Shown here: positions 26,364-36,974 of the stretch, piece by piece
Numbering within the stretch: position 1 is the stretch's first letter
Layout of the letters: each line of letters opens with the position of its first letter
Assembly (NCBI GenBank): GCA_030833445.1
Contig: JAURHD010000002.1
Coordinates: 124,001 to 188,000 of the forward strand
DNA from: Cephaloticoccus sp.
GTDB lineage: Bacteria; Verrucomicrobiota; Verrucomicrobiia; Opitutales; Opitutaceae
DNA length: 64,000 nucleotides
Direction of reading: 5' to 3'
The notes under the pieces: model-generated
Database searches by the model: none
What the model saw: the letters and a program-made list of their open reading frames with translations, nothing else
What the model was told of the DNA's origin: nothing
Made by a program: the position numbers and the translations under genes

Positions 26364-27179
26364 ATGCGCCCTTCCCTCATTCGCTCCCGCCTCAAACAAA
26401 ACCAGGCCGTTCGCATTGCCTGCATGTATTATCCGGTCGCGATGATGCCGGCCCATGCCGCCCAAGCTGGCTTCGACGCCATCTGGCTGGATGCAGAGCA
26501 CAACACTTGGGATCGACGCGAGCTGCAGCGCATGATTGGGCTGCACCATCTGGCCAACATTGATTGCATCGTTCGCACCGGCAGTCGCAATGCGACCGAT
26601 CTGTATCATCTGCTCGAGGATGGTGCTACCGGCCTGATGATCCCGCTGGTCAATACCGCCACCGATGCCAAGGCCCTCGCGCAGGCCGTCAAATTCTTCC
26701 CCCTCGGCGAACGCGGTCTCGATGGCGCCAGTCTCGACAACAATTATTATCTGCAAGGCACAACGACCTACACAGCGGACGCCAACCGGGAAACCTTTCT
26801 CATCTTGCAGATCGAAACCCCCGAAGCCTTGTCCAATGTCGAGGCCATTGCCGCGACTCCCGGCGTCGACGGTCTCTTTATCGGACCTGGTGATCTCTCA
26901 CTCCGTCTGGGTTGTCCCCTCGATTGGAGTCATCCCAAGATGGCCGCGGCTCAGGATGCGGTGGCCGCGGCTGCCGCCAAAAACAAGCTGGCATGGGGCC
27001 ACCCCGCCGGGACCGTTGAGCAAATGCAATCCATGATGGCCAAAGGCGCCCGACTGATCGCGCACGGCAGTGACTTTGGCGCGGTAATGGTGGGATTGGC
27101 GAATGCCGGTAAAACCTTGGCCGCAGCCATGGAAAACAAACCGACCGACGCCTCAGCGGGTGCCGCTTTCAATCCCTGA
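26364..27179 (+). CDS. HpcH/HpaI aldolase family protein (2-keto-3-deoxy-sugar acid aldolase-like)
   Basis: WLDAEHNTWDRRELQRMI, LQIETPEALSNVEAIAATPGVDGLFIGPGDLSLRLG. Confidence 0.88.
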   Translation: MRPSLIRSRLKQNQAVRIACMYYPVAMMPAHAAQAGFDAIWLDAEHNTWDRRELQRMIGLHHLANIDCIVRTGSRNATDLYHLLEDGATGLMIPLVNTATDAKALAQAVKFFPLGERGLDGASLDNNYYLQGTTTYTADANRETFLILQIETPEALSNVEAIAATPGVDGLFIGPGDLSLRLGCPLDWSHPKMAAAQDAVAAAAAKNKLAWGHPAGTVEQMQSMMAKGARLIAHGSDFGAVMVGLANAGKTLAAAMENKPTDASAGAAFNP

Positions 27180-27188
27180 CCGGATGCT

Positions 27189-28712
27189 TTATTTGGCGGC
27201 GATCTTGAGTTCCAGCCGGACGACGGTGGGTTTACCGCTACACTCGAATTCAATCACCTGCGCCTCATCTTCCAACAGTTTCGCCGGGACCGTGTAAGTC
27301 CAGACCGCCTCAGCAGCAGAAAACCGGCTAAGAGCATGGCCATTGAGATATGCGCGAACCGTATCAGCAGACGGCTCTGACTTGCCCCATTCGACGATCA
27401 GTTGCACCGCCCGGTTAGTCTCCGGTTTTGGCCCGGTCTGGATGCGAAAGGCAAATCCACCTGGTGAAGGCTGATCCCATTTGTCATCAGTGGCTGGCAA
27501 CGCATTGCCCATCGGTTCACCGGGCGCCCGGACATCATGATAGGTGATCGCATGCACGCGTTCCCGGGCGGCGACATCCGGCAGGGCACTCAATGAGCGC
27601 AGCACTGCATTGAAATTCTCGGCCCCCCAAAGTTTATCCAAACCATGTCCGGTGGGAAAAATGTTAAACAGATAAACCGAATCGGCTCCGCCATGCAGAA
27701 TCGTCGCACCCAATCCTGACAGAAGCGCCGTCGATAGCATTTGAGCCGGACCTTCCGGCGCCGGTTGATAGCGCACTTCCACACTGACGGAAAAGTGCAC
27801 CTTCGTGCCTGCCAGCAGCCGCATCCATTCATCAACCGGAACGTCGAAATCCGCCGTCGCCCAGAATGGCGTGGCGACCAACAGATCAATCAATCCGGAG
27901 CGGGCCCACGCCACGCCATCCAACCCGATCCGCCGCGCAGATTCCGGACGGGTCGGCACCCGGGCGCCAAGCAATACGGGATGCCCCAATCTCTTCGCGG
28001 CCCGATCACACTCGGCACGCACCCGATGCATCCAGGCGGTAATGACTTTCCCGCCCACAAGTTCGCGCCCCGGTCGGAAATGCACCACAAACCGCATCCA
28101 ATCCAGCTCGATGCCATCCAGATCATATCGAGACAGCACTTCGCAGATGTATTTTAAATAGTGCTCCTGCACTTCGGGCAGTTCCCAATCCAGTGCCCGG
28201 TCCATCCAAAAACGGTCGCGATGCATCGCCCGCAGCTTTCTGGCTGCGCGTTGCTCCTTGAAGAACGCACTCAGCAAGGGACTGTCGGGATCCATGCACC
28301 CATGCACGTCATTCATGCGAATCGTCATCCACGCTCCCATGCCGTGATGACGACACCGGGCCAACGCTTCGGCATGAAAATTTATGCCTTGGTCAGCCAA
28401 TCGTTTCGCTGCGTCCAACCGGTTGCGCGTGCCCGGAATCGAAGACGAAGGGAGATGACGCAACGCCGGTTGATCATCCGGACCGGCCGGATCATAGCCG
28501 GACCATTCGGGCTCCCAGACCTCGGTGGCAACATTTGCCTTCATTGCATTGCCACAGGAAATAAATGTGCCCACTCCCGCCCCGGCCAGCCGGTCGATGT
28601 AGTCGTGAATCGATTGCACCGTCATGTCCGCGGGGGTGCGGGCATAGAAAAAATCCGTGCTATCTTGGTTAAATAATGGACCTCTGAGTTTGGTCTGATG
28701 AATAGTGCTCAT
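27189..28712 (-). CDS. Uncharacterised TIM-barrel glycoside hydrolase-like protein
   Basis: RYDLDGIELDWMRFVVHFRPGRE catalytic-barrel-like motif; FYARTPADMTVQSIHDYIDRL N-terminus. Confidence 0.65.
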   Translation of the reverse strand: MSTIHQTKLRGPLFNQDSTDFFYARTPADMTVQSIHDYIDRLAGAGVGTFISCGNAMKANVATEVWEPEWSGYDPAGPDDQPALRHLPSSSIPGTRNRLDAAKRLADQGINFHAEALARCRHHGMGAWMTIRMNDVHGCMDPDSPLLSAFFKEQRAARKLRAMHRDRFWMDRALDWELPEVQEHYLKYICEVLSRYDLDGIELDWMRFVVHFRPGRELVGGKVITAWMHRVRAECDRAAKRLGHPVLLGARVPTRPESARRIGLDGVAWARSGLIDLLVATPFWATADFDVPVDEWMRLLAGTKVHFSVSVEVRYQPAPEGPAQMLSTALLSGLGATILHGGADSVYLFNIFPTGHGLDKLWGAENFNAVLRSLSALPDVAARERVHAITYHDVRAPGEPMGNALPATDDKWDQPSPGGFAFRIQTGPKPETNRAVQLIVEWGKSEPSADTVRAYLNGHALSRFSAAEAVWTYTVPAKLLEDEAQVIEFECSGKPTVVRLELKIAAK

Positions 28713-29281
28713 GTCGGGGAAATTGTTGTTTTATCGTCGGGATCGTTGGCTTTCTCGTAACGGTCCAATTTGGAAAAATCGTCAGGCCAGTCGGGCCGCA
28801 AGCGCACATCCTTGTCGCCCGCAACCGAACCGGGTGCCGCATGACCGCCTTGGGCAGTCGCAGGGCGCATCTCCCACCAGCACTGGCCCTGGTGATTGTG
28901 CTCATGGTCGATCACATACCCCGCTTCCTGCAGCATGGGTCCGGTCCATCCCATGCAGTGATCGCAATAGTCGCGGTAGTTGTTTAGACCGTTGCGCAGT
29001 AAAAAACCGCGGGACGGACAGGCATGGAAATCGATGCGAAACACCTCCGCGCGATGCGTGATGTTGAAACCCAGATCCGGCGATTCCTCCAGCAACGTGT
29101 GCCCCCAATATTTCAACATGCCGGGAATTCCCTCGTTGCGGATCAGGTCCCGCGCGTGGCGCTGGCTGTCGTGGTTGATCGCCTCGTTCCAGTATTCACG
29201 CACCAGGTCATGGCCCCCGGCCCGCTCCAGCCAACCGAAGGTCCACTCGTAGTGCCCGCAAAAATCGTAACAACCAATCAT
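28709..29281 (-). CDS. Hypothetical Cys-motif protein, paralogue of 29278..29790
   Basis: Start chosen at MIGCYDFCGHYEW; ATGA overlap with both neighbours; YRDYCDHCMGW...GQCWWEMR. Confidence 0.7.
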   Translation of the reverse strand: MIGCYDFCGHYEWTFGWLERAGGHDLVREYWNEAINHDSQRHARDLIRNEGIPGMLKYWGHTLLEESPDLGFNITHRAEVFRIDFHACPSRGFLLRNGLNNYRDYCDHCMGWTGPMLQEAGYVIDHEHNHQGQCWWEMRPATAQGGHAAPGSVAGDKDVRLRPDWPDDFSKLDRYEKANDPDDKTTISPT

Positions 29282-29790
29282 GACCGCGCCTCCTTGATCT
29301 GGCCCAAGTCCTGGGCGGGCAGTTTCACCTCCGCGCTGCGGTAGATGTGTCGGCAGCACCCGTTGCCCCCCTCCAATCGCATGGTCATCCCGGCTGCTTC
29401 CGCCCGAGCTGATCCGAGGAAATAGCAATGCTGACAATACTCCTTTACCAATTCCCGCCCACCTGCCCGCAAATGTTTGATGGCCGGGCATTCCTGCACG
29501 TTGAGCACAATCTGATCAGGGGCTTCCTCAATCTTCACCCGGGCACCCGGTTCAGCCGCAAAAAAGGCCCGCCAATACCCGGCCACCGCGGGCATGCCAC
29601 CGGTGCGCCATCGCTCATTCACCGGCGCAAAATAACCCCGCCCAAGCTCCCCCAGATAGCTGATCCATGCCGCCCGACCCAACCGGTTGAGCATGAAACG
29701 AAAGGTGGCATTGACCGCATAGTAGAAATCCGGCGACCCCTGAGGTTTCGTGTCCGTATAAGTAAGCTCGCTGCCCGCTGGAGTGCTCAT
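29278..29790 (-). CDS. Hypothetical Cys-motif protein, paralogue of 28709..29281
   Basis: VQECPAIKHLRAGGRELVKEYCQHCYFLGSARAEAAGMTMRLEGGNGCCRHIY; ATGA overlap with downstream gene. Confidence 0.7.
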   Translation of the reverse strand: MSTPAGSELTYTDTKPQGSPDFYYAVNATFRFMLNRLGRAAWISYLGELGRGYFAPVNERWRTGGMPAVAGYWRAFFAAEPGARVKIEEAPDQIVLNVQECPAIKHLRAGGRELVKEYCQHCYFLGSARAEAAGMTMRLEGGNGCCRHIYRSAEVKLPAQDLGQIKEARS

Positions 29791-29843: not shown

Positions 29844-29919
29844 TGGTGGCGAGTCCCGGAATCGAACCGGGGACACAAAGATTTTCAGTCTTCTGCTCTA
29901 CCAACTGAGCTAACTCGCC
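29844..29919 (-). tRNA. tRNA-Phe (anticodon GAA)
   Basis: GGCGAGTTAGCTCAGTTGGTAGAGCAGAAGACTGAAAATCTTTGTGTCCCCGGTTCGATTCCGGGACTCGCCACCA. Confidence 0.96.
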
Positions 29920-31083: not shown

Positions 31084-32016
31084 TCAACCCAACCGGATCA
31101 ACTCGCCCAAAGCGTCCACCACTGAGACCTTTGCCTCAAAGCCCAATTCCTTTCGGGCGCGTTCTGGCCGACCGAGTGAATGCACAATATCACCTTTGCG
31201 CGCTTCGCCCATGGTGGGTGCGGCTACGGCGGGATAATGTTGAGCAAAGATTCCAACCACATCCAACAACGAGGTTGCCCGGCCCGTGCAGATGTTTGCG
31301 GCCCCAGATGGCAAACCCGAGACGGTTGCGGCGATCAGGTTCGCTCGGGCCACATCATGCACCGAAATGAAATCGCGCGTCTGTGAACCGTCGCCGTAGA
31401 TCGTAACCGATTTCCCCTCCCGGTAACGTCGGTCGAAAATAGAAATCACACCGGAATAAGGTGACGCCGGATCTTGGCGGGGACCGAAGACATTGAAATA
31501 ACGGTGGCAACGAACCGACGTTTCCGGTCCGGCGCAGGCCAACAAGATCCCTTCCGAGGCCAATTTCGCCTCACCATAGGGACTGATTGGCTGCTTAGCA
31601 GTCTCCTCTTTGATCGGCAGGTCCGTCGTGTCGCCGTAAATGGCCGCCGAGGAGGCAAACACCAGTCGTTTGACCCCATGGGTCTTAGCCGCCGCGGCCA
31701 CTTGCTCCGTGGCAGTTACGTTAAGCCGATAATTCAACGCCGGATCTTGAATACTTTCCTGCACACTGACGAGGGCGGCCAAGTGGATGATCCCATCGGG
31801 AGAAAACTCTGCTGCGAGTCGTTCCATAACGCCGTGATCTGACACATCCGCCTCCACCAAACGAAAACGGTCATTTTCCAAGGCCGTGGTCAAATTATGG
31901 CGGTGCCCGGTGCGAAAATTATCCACGCCGAGGACTGTGTGTCCTTCCGCCAGCAACCGGTCGGTCGTATGACTGCCGATAAAGCCCGCCGCGCCTGTTA
32001 CGATAATCTTCGCCAT
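31084..32016 (-). CDS. NAD-dependent epimerase/dehydratase (UDP-glucose 4-epimerase-like)
   Basis: VTGAAGFIGSHTTDRLLAEGHTV; PYGEAKLASE (YxxxK). Confidence 0.9.
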   Translation of the reverse strand: MAKIIVTGAAGFIGSHTTDRLLAEGHTVLGVDNFRTGHRHNLTTALENDRFRLVEADVSDHGVMERLAAEFSPDGIIHLAALVSVQESIQDPALNYRLNVTATEQVAAAAKTHGVKRLVFASSAAIYGDTTDLPIKEETAKQPISPYGEAKLASEGILLACAGPETSVRCHRYFNVFGPRQDPASPYSGVISIFDRRYREGKSVTIYGDGSQTRDFISVHDVARANLIAATVSGLPSGAANICTGRATSLLDVVGIFAQHYPAVAAPTMGEARKGDIVHSLGRPERARKELGFEAKVSVVDALGELIRLG

Positions 32017-32124
32017 GCCGGCAAGTTAGGGTCACTCGAACCGATGACAAGCGCGCGCATGAATGTTCGCTCAGCGAAACCTTGCCTTCACGACCCTGCC
32101 TCCATTTGGCTCCCTCTTCCTTTC

Positions 32125-34815
32125 ATGGCCTCCTCTAGCCGCCCCGTCCAGTTGCGTTGCAACCACCTGACCAACCCCTTGGGTCAGCACGATTCCGCCC
32201 CGCGTCTCAGTTGGCGACTCGCCAGTGATGGCCGGCGTGGCGCGCGTCAGATCGCCTATCGCATCCTCGTGTCGACCAAGCGCAATGGATCGGCCGATCT
32301 TTGGGATTCGGGGCGGGTCAATTCCGACGCGACCACGGAAATCATTTACGGCGGCAAGCCGCTCGTTTCACGCCAACGCGCCTGGTGGCGCGTCGAGATT
32401 TGGGACGAGCGCAAACAATCAGCGACCAGTGCCCCGTCGTTTTGGGAAATGGGCTTATTGCAGACCGCGGAATGGACCGGATCGTGGATTGGTTCTGATT
32501 TGGTTGGGGGACCCGAATCGACCGTCCCGAGCCCGTATCTGCGCACCATATTCAATGTGGGTAAACCCATCGCGCAGGCCCGCTTGTTTGTGACCGCCTT
32601 GGGTCTCTACGAATTCCAGATCAACGGCCAACGTGTCAGCACGGATCAGTTCGCTCCCGGTTGGACCGACTACGCCAAGCGCGTGCAATATCAGGCCCAT
32701 GATGTCACCACCCTACTCGCCGCTGGAGCCAATGCGGCCGGGGCCATTCTCGGGGATGGTTGGTATTGCGGCCGGATCGGCTGGCGTTCCCGGGGTTATT
32801 ATGGCGAACGTCCAAAACTGCTCGCCCAGATCGTGGTTACCTATCGGGATGGCACCGAGGAGATCATCGCCACCGACGGTTCGTGGAAGACCGAGCACGG
32901 CGCCATCCTCGAAAACGATATCATGCATGGCGAAGCGTATGATGCCCGGCGCGAGCTGATCGGTTGGAGCGAACCCAAATACGACGATCGCACCTGGCCG
33001 CCCGTCACGACTTTCACCGCCCCCGCGATCGAAATCTCACCGACCATTGGGCCGATGGTTCAGGCCACCCAGGAAATCAAACCCATCGCGGCACCGGTCA
33101 AAAAAGACGGCTGGCCCGAGCCAACCTGGATTTTCGATTTGGGCCAGAACATCGCCGGGCGGATTCGCCTCAAGATTACCGGTAAAGCCGGCCAGACCAT
33201 CAAGCTGCGCTATGCCGAGGTATTGAATACCGATGGGTCCATTTACACTGACAATCTGCGCGCCGCCCGCGTCACCGACTTCTATATCCTGCGCGGTGAC
33301 TCCGGGGGCGAAGTCTGGGAGCCCAAGTTCACCTTTCATGGTTTTCGTTACGTCGAAATCGGCGGATATCTTGGCGATCTGACGGCGGATGCCGTTACCG
33401 GGATCGTCTTGCACAATGATACCCCGCGCACGGGTGATTTCACCTGCAGCGACCCCCTCATCAATCAACTGCAACGCAACATCGATTGGGGTCAACGCGG
33501 CAACTTCCTCGAAGTGCCGACCGATTGCCCGCAACGCAACGAACGACTGGGTTGGATGGGCGACGCGCAAGTGTTCGCGCGCACCGCGGCGTGGAATCGC
33601 GACGTGCAGGGCTTTTTCAACAAATGGCAACGCGACATCAGTGATGCCCAGCAACCCGATGGGGCCATGCCCGCCGTGGTGCCACACGTTGAGGGCGTCC
33701 CCCCCGACGGTGGACCAGCTTGGGCGGATGCCGCGGTGATCTGTCCATGGACAATTTATCAATGCTATGGCGACAAGGCCCTGCTCGCTCAACATTTCGC
33801 TTCGTTGGAAAAGTTCATCGGCTACATGGAAACGCACGCCAAGGAACTGATTCGCGCCCATCCCGACACCAAGGTCTGGCACGGCTTCGGTGATTGGCTG
33901 GCCTTGGATGGCAGCGGTAATGTCTTCGGCAACACGCCCAAGGATCTTATCGGCACGGCGTTGTTCTGCTATAGCACAGATCTGGTGGCCAAGATGGCCC
34001 GTGCGCTCGGACGTGATCCGGCGGCTGTTCGCTATGAAAAATTAGCCACCCGAATCCGGCGCGCTTATCAGAAACGCTACGTCACGGCCGATGGGGTCGT
34101 CAGCGGACTCACGCAGACCAGCTACGTGCTGACATTGCAATTCGATCTCGCGCCGGAAGCATTGCGGCCGAAATTGCTGAATGAGCTTGTGCGCGATATC
34201 GAGGCCCGCGGCAACAAACTGACCACAGGTTTTGTTGGGGCCTCTTACCTCCCGCATGTGCTAACCCGTTTTGGTCGCATGGATGTCGCCTACAAATTGC
34301 TCCACCAAAAGGCTTGGCCTTCATGGCTCTACGCCGTGACCCAAGGCGCCACCACCATCTGGGAACGCTGGGATGGCTGGACCAAGGAAAACGGTTTTCA
34401 GGACAAAGGCATGAACTCGTTCAACCATTATGCCTATGGGGCGATCGGTTGCTGGCTCTACCAAGTTGTGGCGGGCATCGAAATCGATCCGGAACAACCG
34501 GCCTACAAGCACATCCTGCTGTCACCCCAACCCGGCGGCGAACTCACTTCCGCCAAAGGCAGCCTGCAATCCATTCACGGCGAAATCCTCAGTTCATGGA
34601 AACTCGGGACCAATCGCTTCGATTGGGAAGTGGTCGTGCCGCCGAACACCACCGCGACCGCATCCTTTCCGGTGCCGTCATCCGCCAAAATCTCCGAAGG
34701 CGGCAAATCACTCGCCAAAACCTCCGGTGTCACCAAGACCAAATCGTCGGGGACTGCCCCCCGCTACACCCTCGCCGCCGGTCGCTACAAATTCAGCGCC
34801 AGCTGGACCAAATAA
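32125..34815 (+). CDS. Alpha-L-rhamnosidase (GH78-like)
   Basis: DCPQRNERLGWMGDAQVFARTAAWN, TTIWERWDGWTKENGFQDKGMNSFNHYAYGAIGCWLYQ; start chosen at MASSSRPVQLRCNHL. Confidence 0.92.
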   Translation: MASSSRPVQLRCNHLTNPLGQHDSAPRLSWRLASDGRRGARQIAYRILVSTKRNGSADLWDSGRVNSDATTEIIYGGKPLVSRQRAWWRVEIWDERKQSATSAPSFWEMGLLQTAEWTGSWIGSDLVGGPESTVPSPYLRTIFNVGKPIAQARLFVTALGLYEFQINGQRVSTDQFAPGWTDYAKRVQYQAHDVTTLLAAGANAAGAILGDGWYCGRIGWRSRGYYGERPKLLAQIVVTYRDGTEEIIATDGSWKTEHGAILENDIMHGEAYDARRELIGWSEPKYDDRTWPPVTTFTAPAIEISPTIGPMVQATQEIKPIAAPVKKDGWPEPTWIFDLGQNIAGRIRLKITGKAGQTIKLRYAEVLNTDGSIYTDNLRAARVTDFYILRGDSGGEVWEPKFTFHGFRYVEIGGYLGDLTADAVTGIVLHNDTPRTGDFTCSDPLINQLQRNIDWGQRGNFLEVPTDCPQRNERLGWMGDAQVFARTAAWNRDVQGFFNKWQRDISDAQQPDGAMPAVVPHVEGVPPDGGPAWADAAVICPWTIYQCYGDKALLAQHFASLEKFIGYMETHAKELIRAHPDTKVWHGFGDWLALDGSGNVFGNTPKDLIGTALFCYSTDLVAKMARALGRDPAAVRYEKLATRIRRAYQKRYVTADGVVSGLTQTSYVLTLQFDLAPEALRPKLLNELVRDIEARGNKLTTGFVGASYLPHVLTRFGRMDVAYKLLHQKAWPSWLYAVTQGATTIWERWDGWTKENGFQDKGMNSFNHYAYGAIGCWLYQVVAGIEIDPEQPAYKHILLSPQPGGELTSAKGSLQSIHGEILSSWKLGTNRFDWEVVVPPNTTATASFPVPSSAKISEGGKSLAKTSGVTKTKSSGTAPRYTLAAGRYKFSASWTK

Positions 34816-34818
34816 ATT

Positions 34819-35895
34819 ATGCCTGTTCGCAAAAAATGGCGCGTGGCCGGAATCAACTTTGATTTCCGCCACATGGATCATCTGCTCAGTTATGTGCACG
34901 GTCACCCCGGAGCCGAGATTGTTGGCATCAGCCACACCGATTTGGTCGAGATGCAGACCTCGATTCGGGAATACAAGCTGCCCCCGGAAAAAGTCTTTAC
35001 GGATTGGCAGGCTTGTATTGAGCAAACCAAACCCGACCTGGTGATTCTCTGCCCCGCCAGCGGCGCCCATGCCGATTGGGTTGAACGGGTGGCCCCTTAT
35101 GGTGTGCATGTGCTGATCGAAAAGCCCTTTGCGGCCAATCTCGCCCAGGCCGACCGCATGATCGCGGCGATGAAAAAATCCCGTCGGCGCCTCGCCATCA
35201 ATTGGCCGCTCGCGTGGTATCCGCCGCACCTCACCGCCTACCGCCTCCTGCACGAAGGCAAGATCGGTGACCTGCAGGAAGTGCACTTTTACGATGGCAA
35301 CCGCGGCCCCATCCAGGACCACGGCAATCTCGCCGCCCCTGAACCTTCCCTCGTCACGAAAAAGGCCAGTTGGTTCTACGAGGCCAATGGTGGCGGCTCT
35401 CTGATCGATTATCTGGGTTACGGTGTCACCCTCGCCACGTGGTTTTTTGATGGTCGCAAACCAACCGAGATCACAGCGGTAACGGGCGGGGCCAAGGGTG
35501 TCCCGGTCGATGAACAAAGTGTCACCATCGCGCGCTACGGCGAATGGTTGTCCACTTTCCATACTCGCTGGAGCACCTTCACCAGTCCGTGGCTCAATCA
35601 ACCGCAACCGAAATGTGGTTTCATACTCAAGGGCACTGACGGAACGATAGCCAATTACGATTACGAAACCACCATCCGGCTACAGACCCGTAACCATCCC
35701 GAAGGTAAAATCATTCCGGTGGACAAACTGAAGAAACCCCTCTGCAACCCCGTGCAGTATTTCCTGCATTGCTTGGAAACCGGTGCACCCATCGAAGGTC
35801 CCATCTCCGTCAAAACCGGACGCATCGGCCAGCAGATCGTCGATACCGCCGCCCTCAGCGCCAAAACCAAGCGCCCGCAAAAGCTCCTGAAATAA
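34819..35895 (+). CDS. Gfo/Idh/MocA family oxidoreductase
   Basis: LIEKPFAANLAQADRMIAA; Rossmann-type N-terminus. Confidence 0.88.
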   Translation: MPVRKKWRVAGINFDFRHMDHLLSYVHGHPGAEIVGISHTDLVEMQTSIREYKLPPEKVFTDWQACIEQTKPDLVILCPASGAHADWVERVAPYGVHVLIEKPFAANLAQADRMIAAMKKSRRRLAINWPLAWYPPHLTAYRLLHEGKIGDLQEVHFYDGNRGPIQDHGNLAAPEPSLVTKKASWFYEANGGGSLIDYLGYGVTLATWFFDGRKPTEITAVTGGAKGVPVDEQSVTIARYGEWLSTFHTRWSTFTSPWLNQPQPKCGFILKGTDGTIANYDYETTIRLQTRNHPEGKIIPVDKLKKPLCNPVQYFLHCLETGAPIEGPISVKTGRIGQQIVDTAALSAKTKRPQKLLK

Positions 35896-35912
35896 TTGCA
35901 AAACCTAGCAGC

Positions 35913-36974
35913 ATGCGTCCCCCAAAACTAGATTATCAGCCGCGTGGTCCCCGCCGCCCCAAAGCCCACAAGCTCGCGCTGATCGGTTGCGGCGGTATCT
36001 CGCAATATCATCTGCAGGCAGCCAAGCATTGGAATGTGGAGGTTGTCGCTCTCGCGGACATCAATCTCAAGGCAGCCCAGAGTCGGCGCGATGAATTTTA
36101 TCCTCAGGCCGAGGTCTATGCCGACCATCGAGAGCTACTGGCTCGCTCCGACATTACCGCGGTAGAGATCGCCACCCATACTGCTATCCGCCCGGCTCAG
36201 ATTCGCGATGCTCTCCTCGCCGGCAAACACGTGCTCAGTCAAAAGCCATTCGTCGCCGATATTCGCGAAGGTCGCAAACTCATCGCCTTGGCGAAGCGCA
36301 AAAAACTCGTGCTTGCCGTCAACCAGAACGGCCGTTGGGCACCCCAGTTTGCCAGTTTACTCGCGGCCCAACGCCAAGGCTTCCTCGGCGATATCCACTC
36401 GCTCGATATGGTGATGGCGTGGGATCATACGTGGTGCCGTGGCATGCCCTACGCAGAGCAACGCCATCTTATCCTCTTCGACTTCGCGATTCATTGGTTT
36501 GATATTGCCGCAACCGTATTTGGCGAACGCCGGGCAAGCAGTGTATTCGCCAACGCAGTAAAGGCACCCAAGCAGGACATGAAAATTCCCATGCTGGCCA
36601 ATACCATCGTCAATTATGGTGACGGCCTCGCCACGCTGGGTTTCAGCGCCTATGAATCGATCGAGCCGCGCGAATACATTTGTTGCGTCGGTTCGAAAGG
36701 CACCTTCCGCGGGACGGGTAATGTAAATAAGATCACGGCAGTGGAACTGAGCACTCGGAAAGGCACCGCCAAATACGATTTGCAGGGCAATTGGTTTCCC
36801 GACGGTTTTTACGGCACGCTCGGCGAATTCCTGCGGGCCATTGAAGCAGGCCGCGAAGCGAGCATCAATGCGACCAACAACCTGCGCAGTCTCGAACTCT
36901 GTTATGCCGCCCTCGCCAGCGCCGATTCCGGTCAACCCGTGAAACCCGGGAAAGTGCTTAACTGTCGAAACTAG
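35913..36974 (+). CDS. Gfo/Idh/MocA family oxidoreductase
   Basis: KLALIGCGGISQYHLQAAKHWNVEVVALADIN; LSQKPFVADIREG. Confidence 0.9.
   Translation: MRPPKLDYQPRGPRRPKAHKLALIGCGGISQYHLQAAKHWNVEVVALADINLKAAQSRRDEFYPQAEVYADHRELLARSDITAVEIATHTAIRPAQIRDALLAGKHVLSQKPFVADIREGRKLIALAKRKKLVLAVNQNGRWAPQFASLLAAQRQGFLGDIHSLDMVMAWDHTWCRGMPYAEQRHLILFDFAIHWFDIAATVFGERRASSVFANAVKAPKQDMKIPMLANTIVNYGDGLATLGFSAYESIEPREYICCVGSKGTFRGTGNVNKITAVELSTRKGTAKYDLQGNWFPDGFYGTLGEFLRAIEAGREASINATNNLRSLELCYAALASADSGQPVKPGKVLNCRN

Follow-up and report, generated by a model that had tools for sequence, protein, structure and literature searches.

EnvSia156 is a GH156 exo-sialidase of solved structure (PDB 6rzd; PMC6254351, PMC6811678), in which the base was assigned to D14, the acid to H134, the carboxylate triad to R129, R202, and N346, and the aglycone platform to W164, F203, F278, and W279 (PMC6811678). 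A methanogen domain has been described as similar to the HNOB, V4R, and L-2-amino-thiazoline-4-carboxylate (ATC) hydrolase (PF14196) domains, with a conserved Cys cluster common to the methanogen domain, V4R, and ATC hydrolase, and a related fold lineage has been proposed for PF14196 (PMC5847659). The V4R/XylR_N sensors MopR, PoxR, and DmpR, as well as Bet3, consist of helices followed by a beta-beta-helix-helix-beta-beta unit, and Bet3 pairs with partners of like fold. In E. coli-type sialic acid catabolism, the relevant proteins are NanA, NanM, and NanQ. Here we describe a pair of paralogous genes in Verrucomicrobiota, A and B.

Operon layout and the GH156-family gene

On the minus strand of the window (the whole 64,000-nucleotide stretch of Cephaloticoccus sp. 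DNA that was analysed), the genes run in the order A (29278-29790; 170 aa), B (28709-29281; 190 aa), and gene 3 (27189-28712; 507 aa). All three ORFs are open and adjacent genes overlap by ATGA at each junction, as an earlier note on this DNA had reported. Its view that translation is probably coupled is supported by these overlaps and by gene 3, ahead of whose start no Shine-Dalgarno sequence is visible, which fits translational coupling and makes it plausible at that junction. B has a strong Shine-Dalgarno sequence, AAGGAGG, inside the end of A with 7 nt spacing to its ATG. The region ahead of A showed no sigma-70-like promoter. A tRNA-Phe(GAA) gene (29844-29919, minus strand) lies 53 bases upstream of A on the same strand; it marks a conserved module site and is outside the mechanism itself. 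At 31897-36974, also outside the finding, an alpha-L-rhamnosidase-like gene followed by two Gfo/Idh-like genes was recognised by eye.

Gene 3 had been noted for a DGIELDWMRF barrel motif and treated as part of a combination that could not be named; it is instead a GH156 relative that keeps all catalytic residues. The phmmer match to 6rzd (E 6.4e-107) spans residues 10-460, nearly full length, and the equivalents of the EnvSia156 residues are D17 (base), H137 (acid), R132, R207, and N350 (triad), and W169, F208, F283, and W284 (platform). Gene 3 differs from EnvSia156 in its coupling to A/B and at the glycerol-chain residues N15, C53, and Y135, which become S, A, and G (N15S, C53A, Y135G), and at the C5-contacting Q351, which becomes G (Q351G), the same changes being mostly present in close orthologues. 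Hence, gene 3 may prefer an ulosonic acid other than Neu5Ac, and it would be expected from its sequence to cleave an ulosonic acid glycoside, not necessarily one of Neu5Ac. No signal peptide was apparent by eye, so the protein is probably cytoplasmic.

Conservation and predicted fold of the A/B pair

A and B are diverged paralogues (BLASTP E 6e-7; profile-profile probability 98.7%, E 1.6e-16), as had been proposed from sequence motifs that are all present in the proteins. B was detected in 61 of the 380 genomes sampled from the phylum; in the best 30 loci an A-like frame lies just upstream of nearly every B. For the neighbourhoods, genes were called with a simple script at 80 named loci, mostly from Opitutaceae and Verrucomicrobiaceae MAGs, whose counts are not independent of descent. 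In 77 of these, A immediately preceded B (76 by profile plus one contig-end fragment), overlapping it by 1-7 nt in 73 of 76 relatives and by exactly 4 nt in 58, while the other three loci (L093, L123, and L152) carried B without A. A tree built from both proteins together placed A and B on opposite sides of one branch with 100/100 support, and they had three subclades in common, which points to one old duplication followed by joint inheritance; the pair is present in three deep subclades. Variant arrangements were also observed: at L093 a lyase gene is followed after ~100 bases by B, the same MAG having A and B on another contig (L108); a single A lies between two B genes at L059:1366-2934; and tandem B copies occur in several deep genomes (e.g., G305, G258, and G275).

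The earlier note had made its reading depend on the two Cys proteins occurring elsewhere with each other and with the hydrolase. The former is borne out by the 77 loci, whereas the latter holds for some loci and not for most, GH156 being the next gene after B in ~7 of 80 (6 by script and L086 as the seventh). The conserved unit is thus A plus B rather than A, B, and GH156, and the idea of three genes forming one fixed system is not upheld. At the level of whole genomes, GH156 occurred in about 40 of the 61 B-positive genomes compared with 48 of 319 others (odds ratio 10.8, uncorrected for relatedness). Two proteins encoded beside A/B at L074 that cluster with GH156 were not counted; they lack D14, H134, and N346.

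Ten residues of B (Y11, Y58, W59, E66, C88, Y105, C106, H108, C109, and C134) are invariant across all 24 phylum-wide sequences, and E66, C88, C106, H108, C109, and C134 are also invariant in 75 close sequences. In A, four Cys are invariant in the close set only (72/72); of the 24 phylum-wide sequences, 10 retain C122 and 16 retain C119 and C146. The CP...YCxHC...C pattern, previously put forward as common to both proteins, is therefore universal in B and lost from deep relatives of A; similarly, the proposed metal or thiol site survives as a conserved property of B, with A keeping its Cys only in the clade of the window. Given these invariant residues and the Cys loss in deep A, B is the likely bearer of a Cys4/His/Glu active or metal site.

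AlphaFold2 models of A and B (mean pLDDT 92.5 and 87.0) have one predicted fold, the second point on which the earlier reading had been made to depend, with predicted helices followed by a beta-beta-helix-helix-beta-beta unit that resembles the V4R/XylR_N sensors and Bet3. Foldseek placed Bet3/TRAPP subunits and the MopR/PoxR/DmpR sensor domains nearest to both models, with top matches at E 0.0027 for A and 0.035 for B, none at E <0.001, TM-scores of ~0.45-0.55, and 9-15% identity. No V4R/XylR_N Pfam sequence match was obtained for A, B, or the relatives searched, nor did A or B match Pfam, NCBIfam, or PDB sequences significantly or reach any curated cut-off; PDB sequence searches with A, B, and the B profile returned chance matches only. 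The previously suggested lead to ATC hydrolase was useful, since PF14196 was matched by more relatives than any other family (7 of 24 A and 4 of 24 B; best E 0.00095), though always below the curated cut-off. In the window's own genome PF14196 had no match, A and B themselves included. Against four true PF14196 members, profile-profile comparison gave E 4.6e-4 and 33% probability for A and E 0.34 for B. Alongside this weak profile similarity, A/B and PF14196 have in common a CP...C...C pattern and a final Gly/Cys hairpin. Unlike ATC hydrolase, however, A/B consists of two paralogous subunits in a sugar-acid gene context, and no relative reaches the gathering score; judged by these comparisons, the relationship is one of remote kinship, not membership.

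Genomic neighbours and probable exchange of aldolases

Convergent with gene 3, and adjoining the operon from outside it, is a gene for an HpaI/HpcH-type 2-keto-3-deoxy-acid aldolase (26364-27179, plus strand; PF03328, E 1.3e-28; TIGR02311, E 5.8e-37, below the equivalog cut-off). Across the 80 loci, a gene of the DHDPS/N-acetylneuraminate-lyase (NAL) type was the immediate upstream neighbour of A or B in 13, using a NAL profile built from five lyases beside A/B, and a gene for an HpaI-type aldolase immediately preceded A in 9. The DHDPS/NAL type also immediately precedes A in the deep loci L072, L074, and L075. The two types, one present in 22 and the other in 14 loci, never occurred in one locus (3.85 overlaps expected; P 0.007 without relatedness correction), and 44 of 80 loci had neither type within the stretch examined. 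In such loci a putative ulosonate-type lyase or aldolase, typed by sequence, adjoins A/B, as would mark an ulosonate catabolic cluster.

L081, L083, L086, L092, L104, and L110 have the same tRNA-Phe ahead of the module. At the site formed by tRNA-Phe and an SNF2 gene, L083 and L092 carry NAL-A-B together with GH156, and L081, L086, L104, L110, and the window carry A-B-GH156 together with HpaI. Our interpretation is that the aldolase was replaced while A/B stayed constant. Consistent with this swap and with the mutual exclusivity of the two aldolase types, the HpaI gene of the window probably belongs to the module as a functional partner of A/B. We set aside the idea of a mobile island at this tRNA, as the same tRNA-Phe precedes the module in related genomes and the flanking genes are conserved.

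Just downstream of B, a NanM-type Kelch gene was present in 22 loci (PF24996 NANM above cut-off for the tested member of the cluster). Further neighbours encoded SSS symporters, SDR and Gfo/Idh dehydrogenases, amidohydrolases, and BNR proteins. L088 had a D-xylonate dehydratase of the YjhG/YagF type downstream (TIGR03432, 1017.8 bits vs cut-off 808), and L095 had genes for a FAH-type hydrolase, a GSAM-like aminotransferase, and M81 and hisD-like proteins. Counterparts of E. coli-type sialic acid catabolism, a NanA-superfamily lyase and a NanM-type mutarotase, adjoin A/B in many loci; unlike in E. coli, the lyase is replaceable by an HpaI-type aldolase. To our knowledge, E. coli encodes nothing like A/B.

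Elsewhere in the window's own genome, contig C11 (L171:3206-11725) carries a second, diverged GH156 gene with the catalytic D, H, R, R, and N kept, adjoining several Gfo/Idh/MocA genes and a second HpaI-type aldolase gene; such a set (GH156, Gfo/Idh/MocA, HpaI) is joined to A/B in L148 and L160. Contig C22 encodes a YhcH protein like N-acetylneuraminate anomerase (TIGR00022 above cut-off) and a NANM match, and contig C72 a DHDPS-like protein with AGE-like and NagA-like proteins. On C22 (L169:863-10263), genes for a class III aminotransferase, M81 (MlrC-like), RidA-like, and SSS proteins lie near those for BNR and YhcH/NanQ-like proteins, and the aminotransferase-M81 set also adjoins NAL-A-B in L088/L095. 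An apparent amidohydrolase/class III aminotransferase fusion of ~794 aa lies near A/B in a Prosthecobacter-like MAG (L117:3524-5908).

Candidate functions of A/B

We found no paper on the A/B pair. Our preferred reading, to which we give a probability of roughly 45%, is that A/B is a two-subunit V4R/ATC-hydrolase-like enzyme, with B as the catalytic subunit, that performs a hydrolytic or ring-opening step in cytoplasmic ulosonate catabolism. A and B would together form one enzyme, B providing a Cys4/His/Glu metal or thiol site and A serving as its diverged partner. Binding of the two as subunits, which we hold no more firmly than the reading it belongs to, accords with the heteromer already thought probable in the earlier note and with their co-occurrence and common predicted fold. 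In the pathway proposed here, whose substrates would be sugar acids of the sialic acid type (ulosonic, 2-keto-3-deoxy), GH156 would free the ulosonate from its glycoside, A/B would make a hydrolytic or ring-opening change to the free ulosonate or to the sugar that remains after cleavage, and the HpaI aldolase encoded nearby would split off pyruvate. A constant pair beside a variable aldolase suggests an action of A/B on something that both aldolases have in common, either the ulosonate or the sugar formed from it, and not at the aldol step; the kinship to ATC hydrolase favours a hydrolytic or ring-opening reaction. The reading draws on the GH156 identity and catalytic residues of gene 3, the joint inheritance of A and B, the aldolases beside them and their swap at the tRNA-Phe site, the NanM-type, symporter, and dehydrogenase neighbours, the second GH156, second HpaI-type, and anomerase-like genes of the window's own genome, and the predicted fold. 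Against it stand the lack of any match of A or B above a curated cut-off, the 44 loci with neither aldolase type, the altered glycerol-chain and C5 residues of gene 3, and the three loci that have B without A.

A further argument against this enzyme is that members of the V4R/Bet3 superfamily mostly bind ligands, and A/B could accordingly be a ligand-binding sensor, or a substrate carrier or allosteric partner of the aldolase, in the manner of the MopR/PoxR or Bet3 domains. The nearest solved folds are indeed phenol sensors and Bet3, which heterodimerises with partners of like fold, and the likeness drawn between V4R, HNOB, and ATC hydrolase domains, with a Cys cluster shared by V4R and ATC hydrolase (PMC5847659), suits such a role. 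We nevertheless consider it rather unlikely, given that A and B have no DNA-binding or signalling domain and thus lack the regulator domains of MopR, PoxR, and DmpR, that they overlap tightly in an operon-like order with catabolic genes, and that residues of B are as invariant across the phylum as those of an active site.

If A/B is an enzyme, its substrate may be a different 2-keto-3-deoxy acid, as the xylonate dehydratase and FAH hydrolase beside some Opitutaceae copies would allow. A/B could then serve a general 2-keto-3-deoxy sugar-acid route of the pentonate or rhamnonate type, with a dehydratase and an aldolase, into which GH156 and NanM were locally recruited. The dehydratase of L088, the four types of gene listed for L095, and the adjacency of GH156 in a minority of loci agree with this route, yet a NanM-type Kelch gene is the commonest gene downstream and B-positive genomes are strongly enriched in GH156 before any correction for relatedness; we regard it as unlikely. 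That A/B is a true ATC hydrolase of cysteine/thiazoline metabolism, with coincidental sugar neighbours, seems very improbable: PF14196 is the family most often matched and the A profile resembles it weakly, but every match is below the curated cut-off, the B profile has none, and no cysteine or thiazoline genes were seen among the conserved neighbours.

Returning to the two-subunit enzyme of ulosonate catabolism, A/B might represent an undescribed heterodimeric enzyme class of the V4R/ATC-hydrolase fold that performs a new ulosonate step and is kept across Verrucomicrobiota while two unrelated aldolase types are exchanged beside it, a claim we advance tentatively and at somewhat less than even odds. 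A widespread orphan pair thereby gains a testable home, which points to a new step in the digestion of sialic-acid-type sugars by environmental Verrucomicrobiota, where an N-acetylneuraminate-lyase-superfamily lyase and an HpaI-type aldolase appear interchangeable. If true, a fold familiar chiefly from sensors and vesicle-tethering proteins would also serve an enzyme of a sugar pathway.
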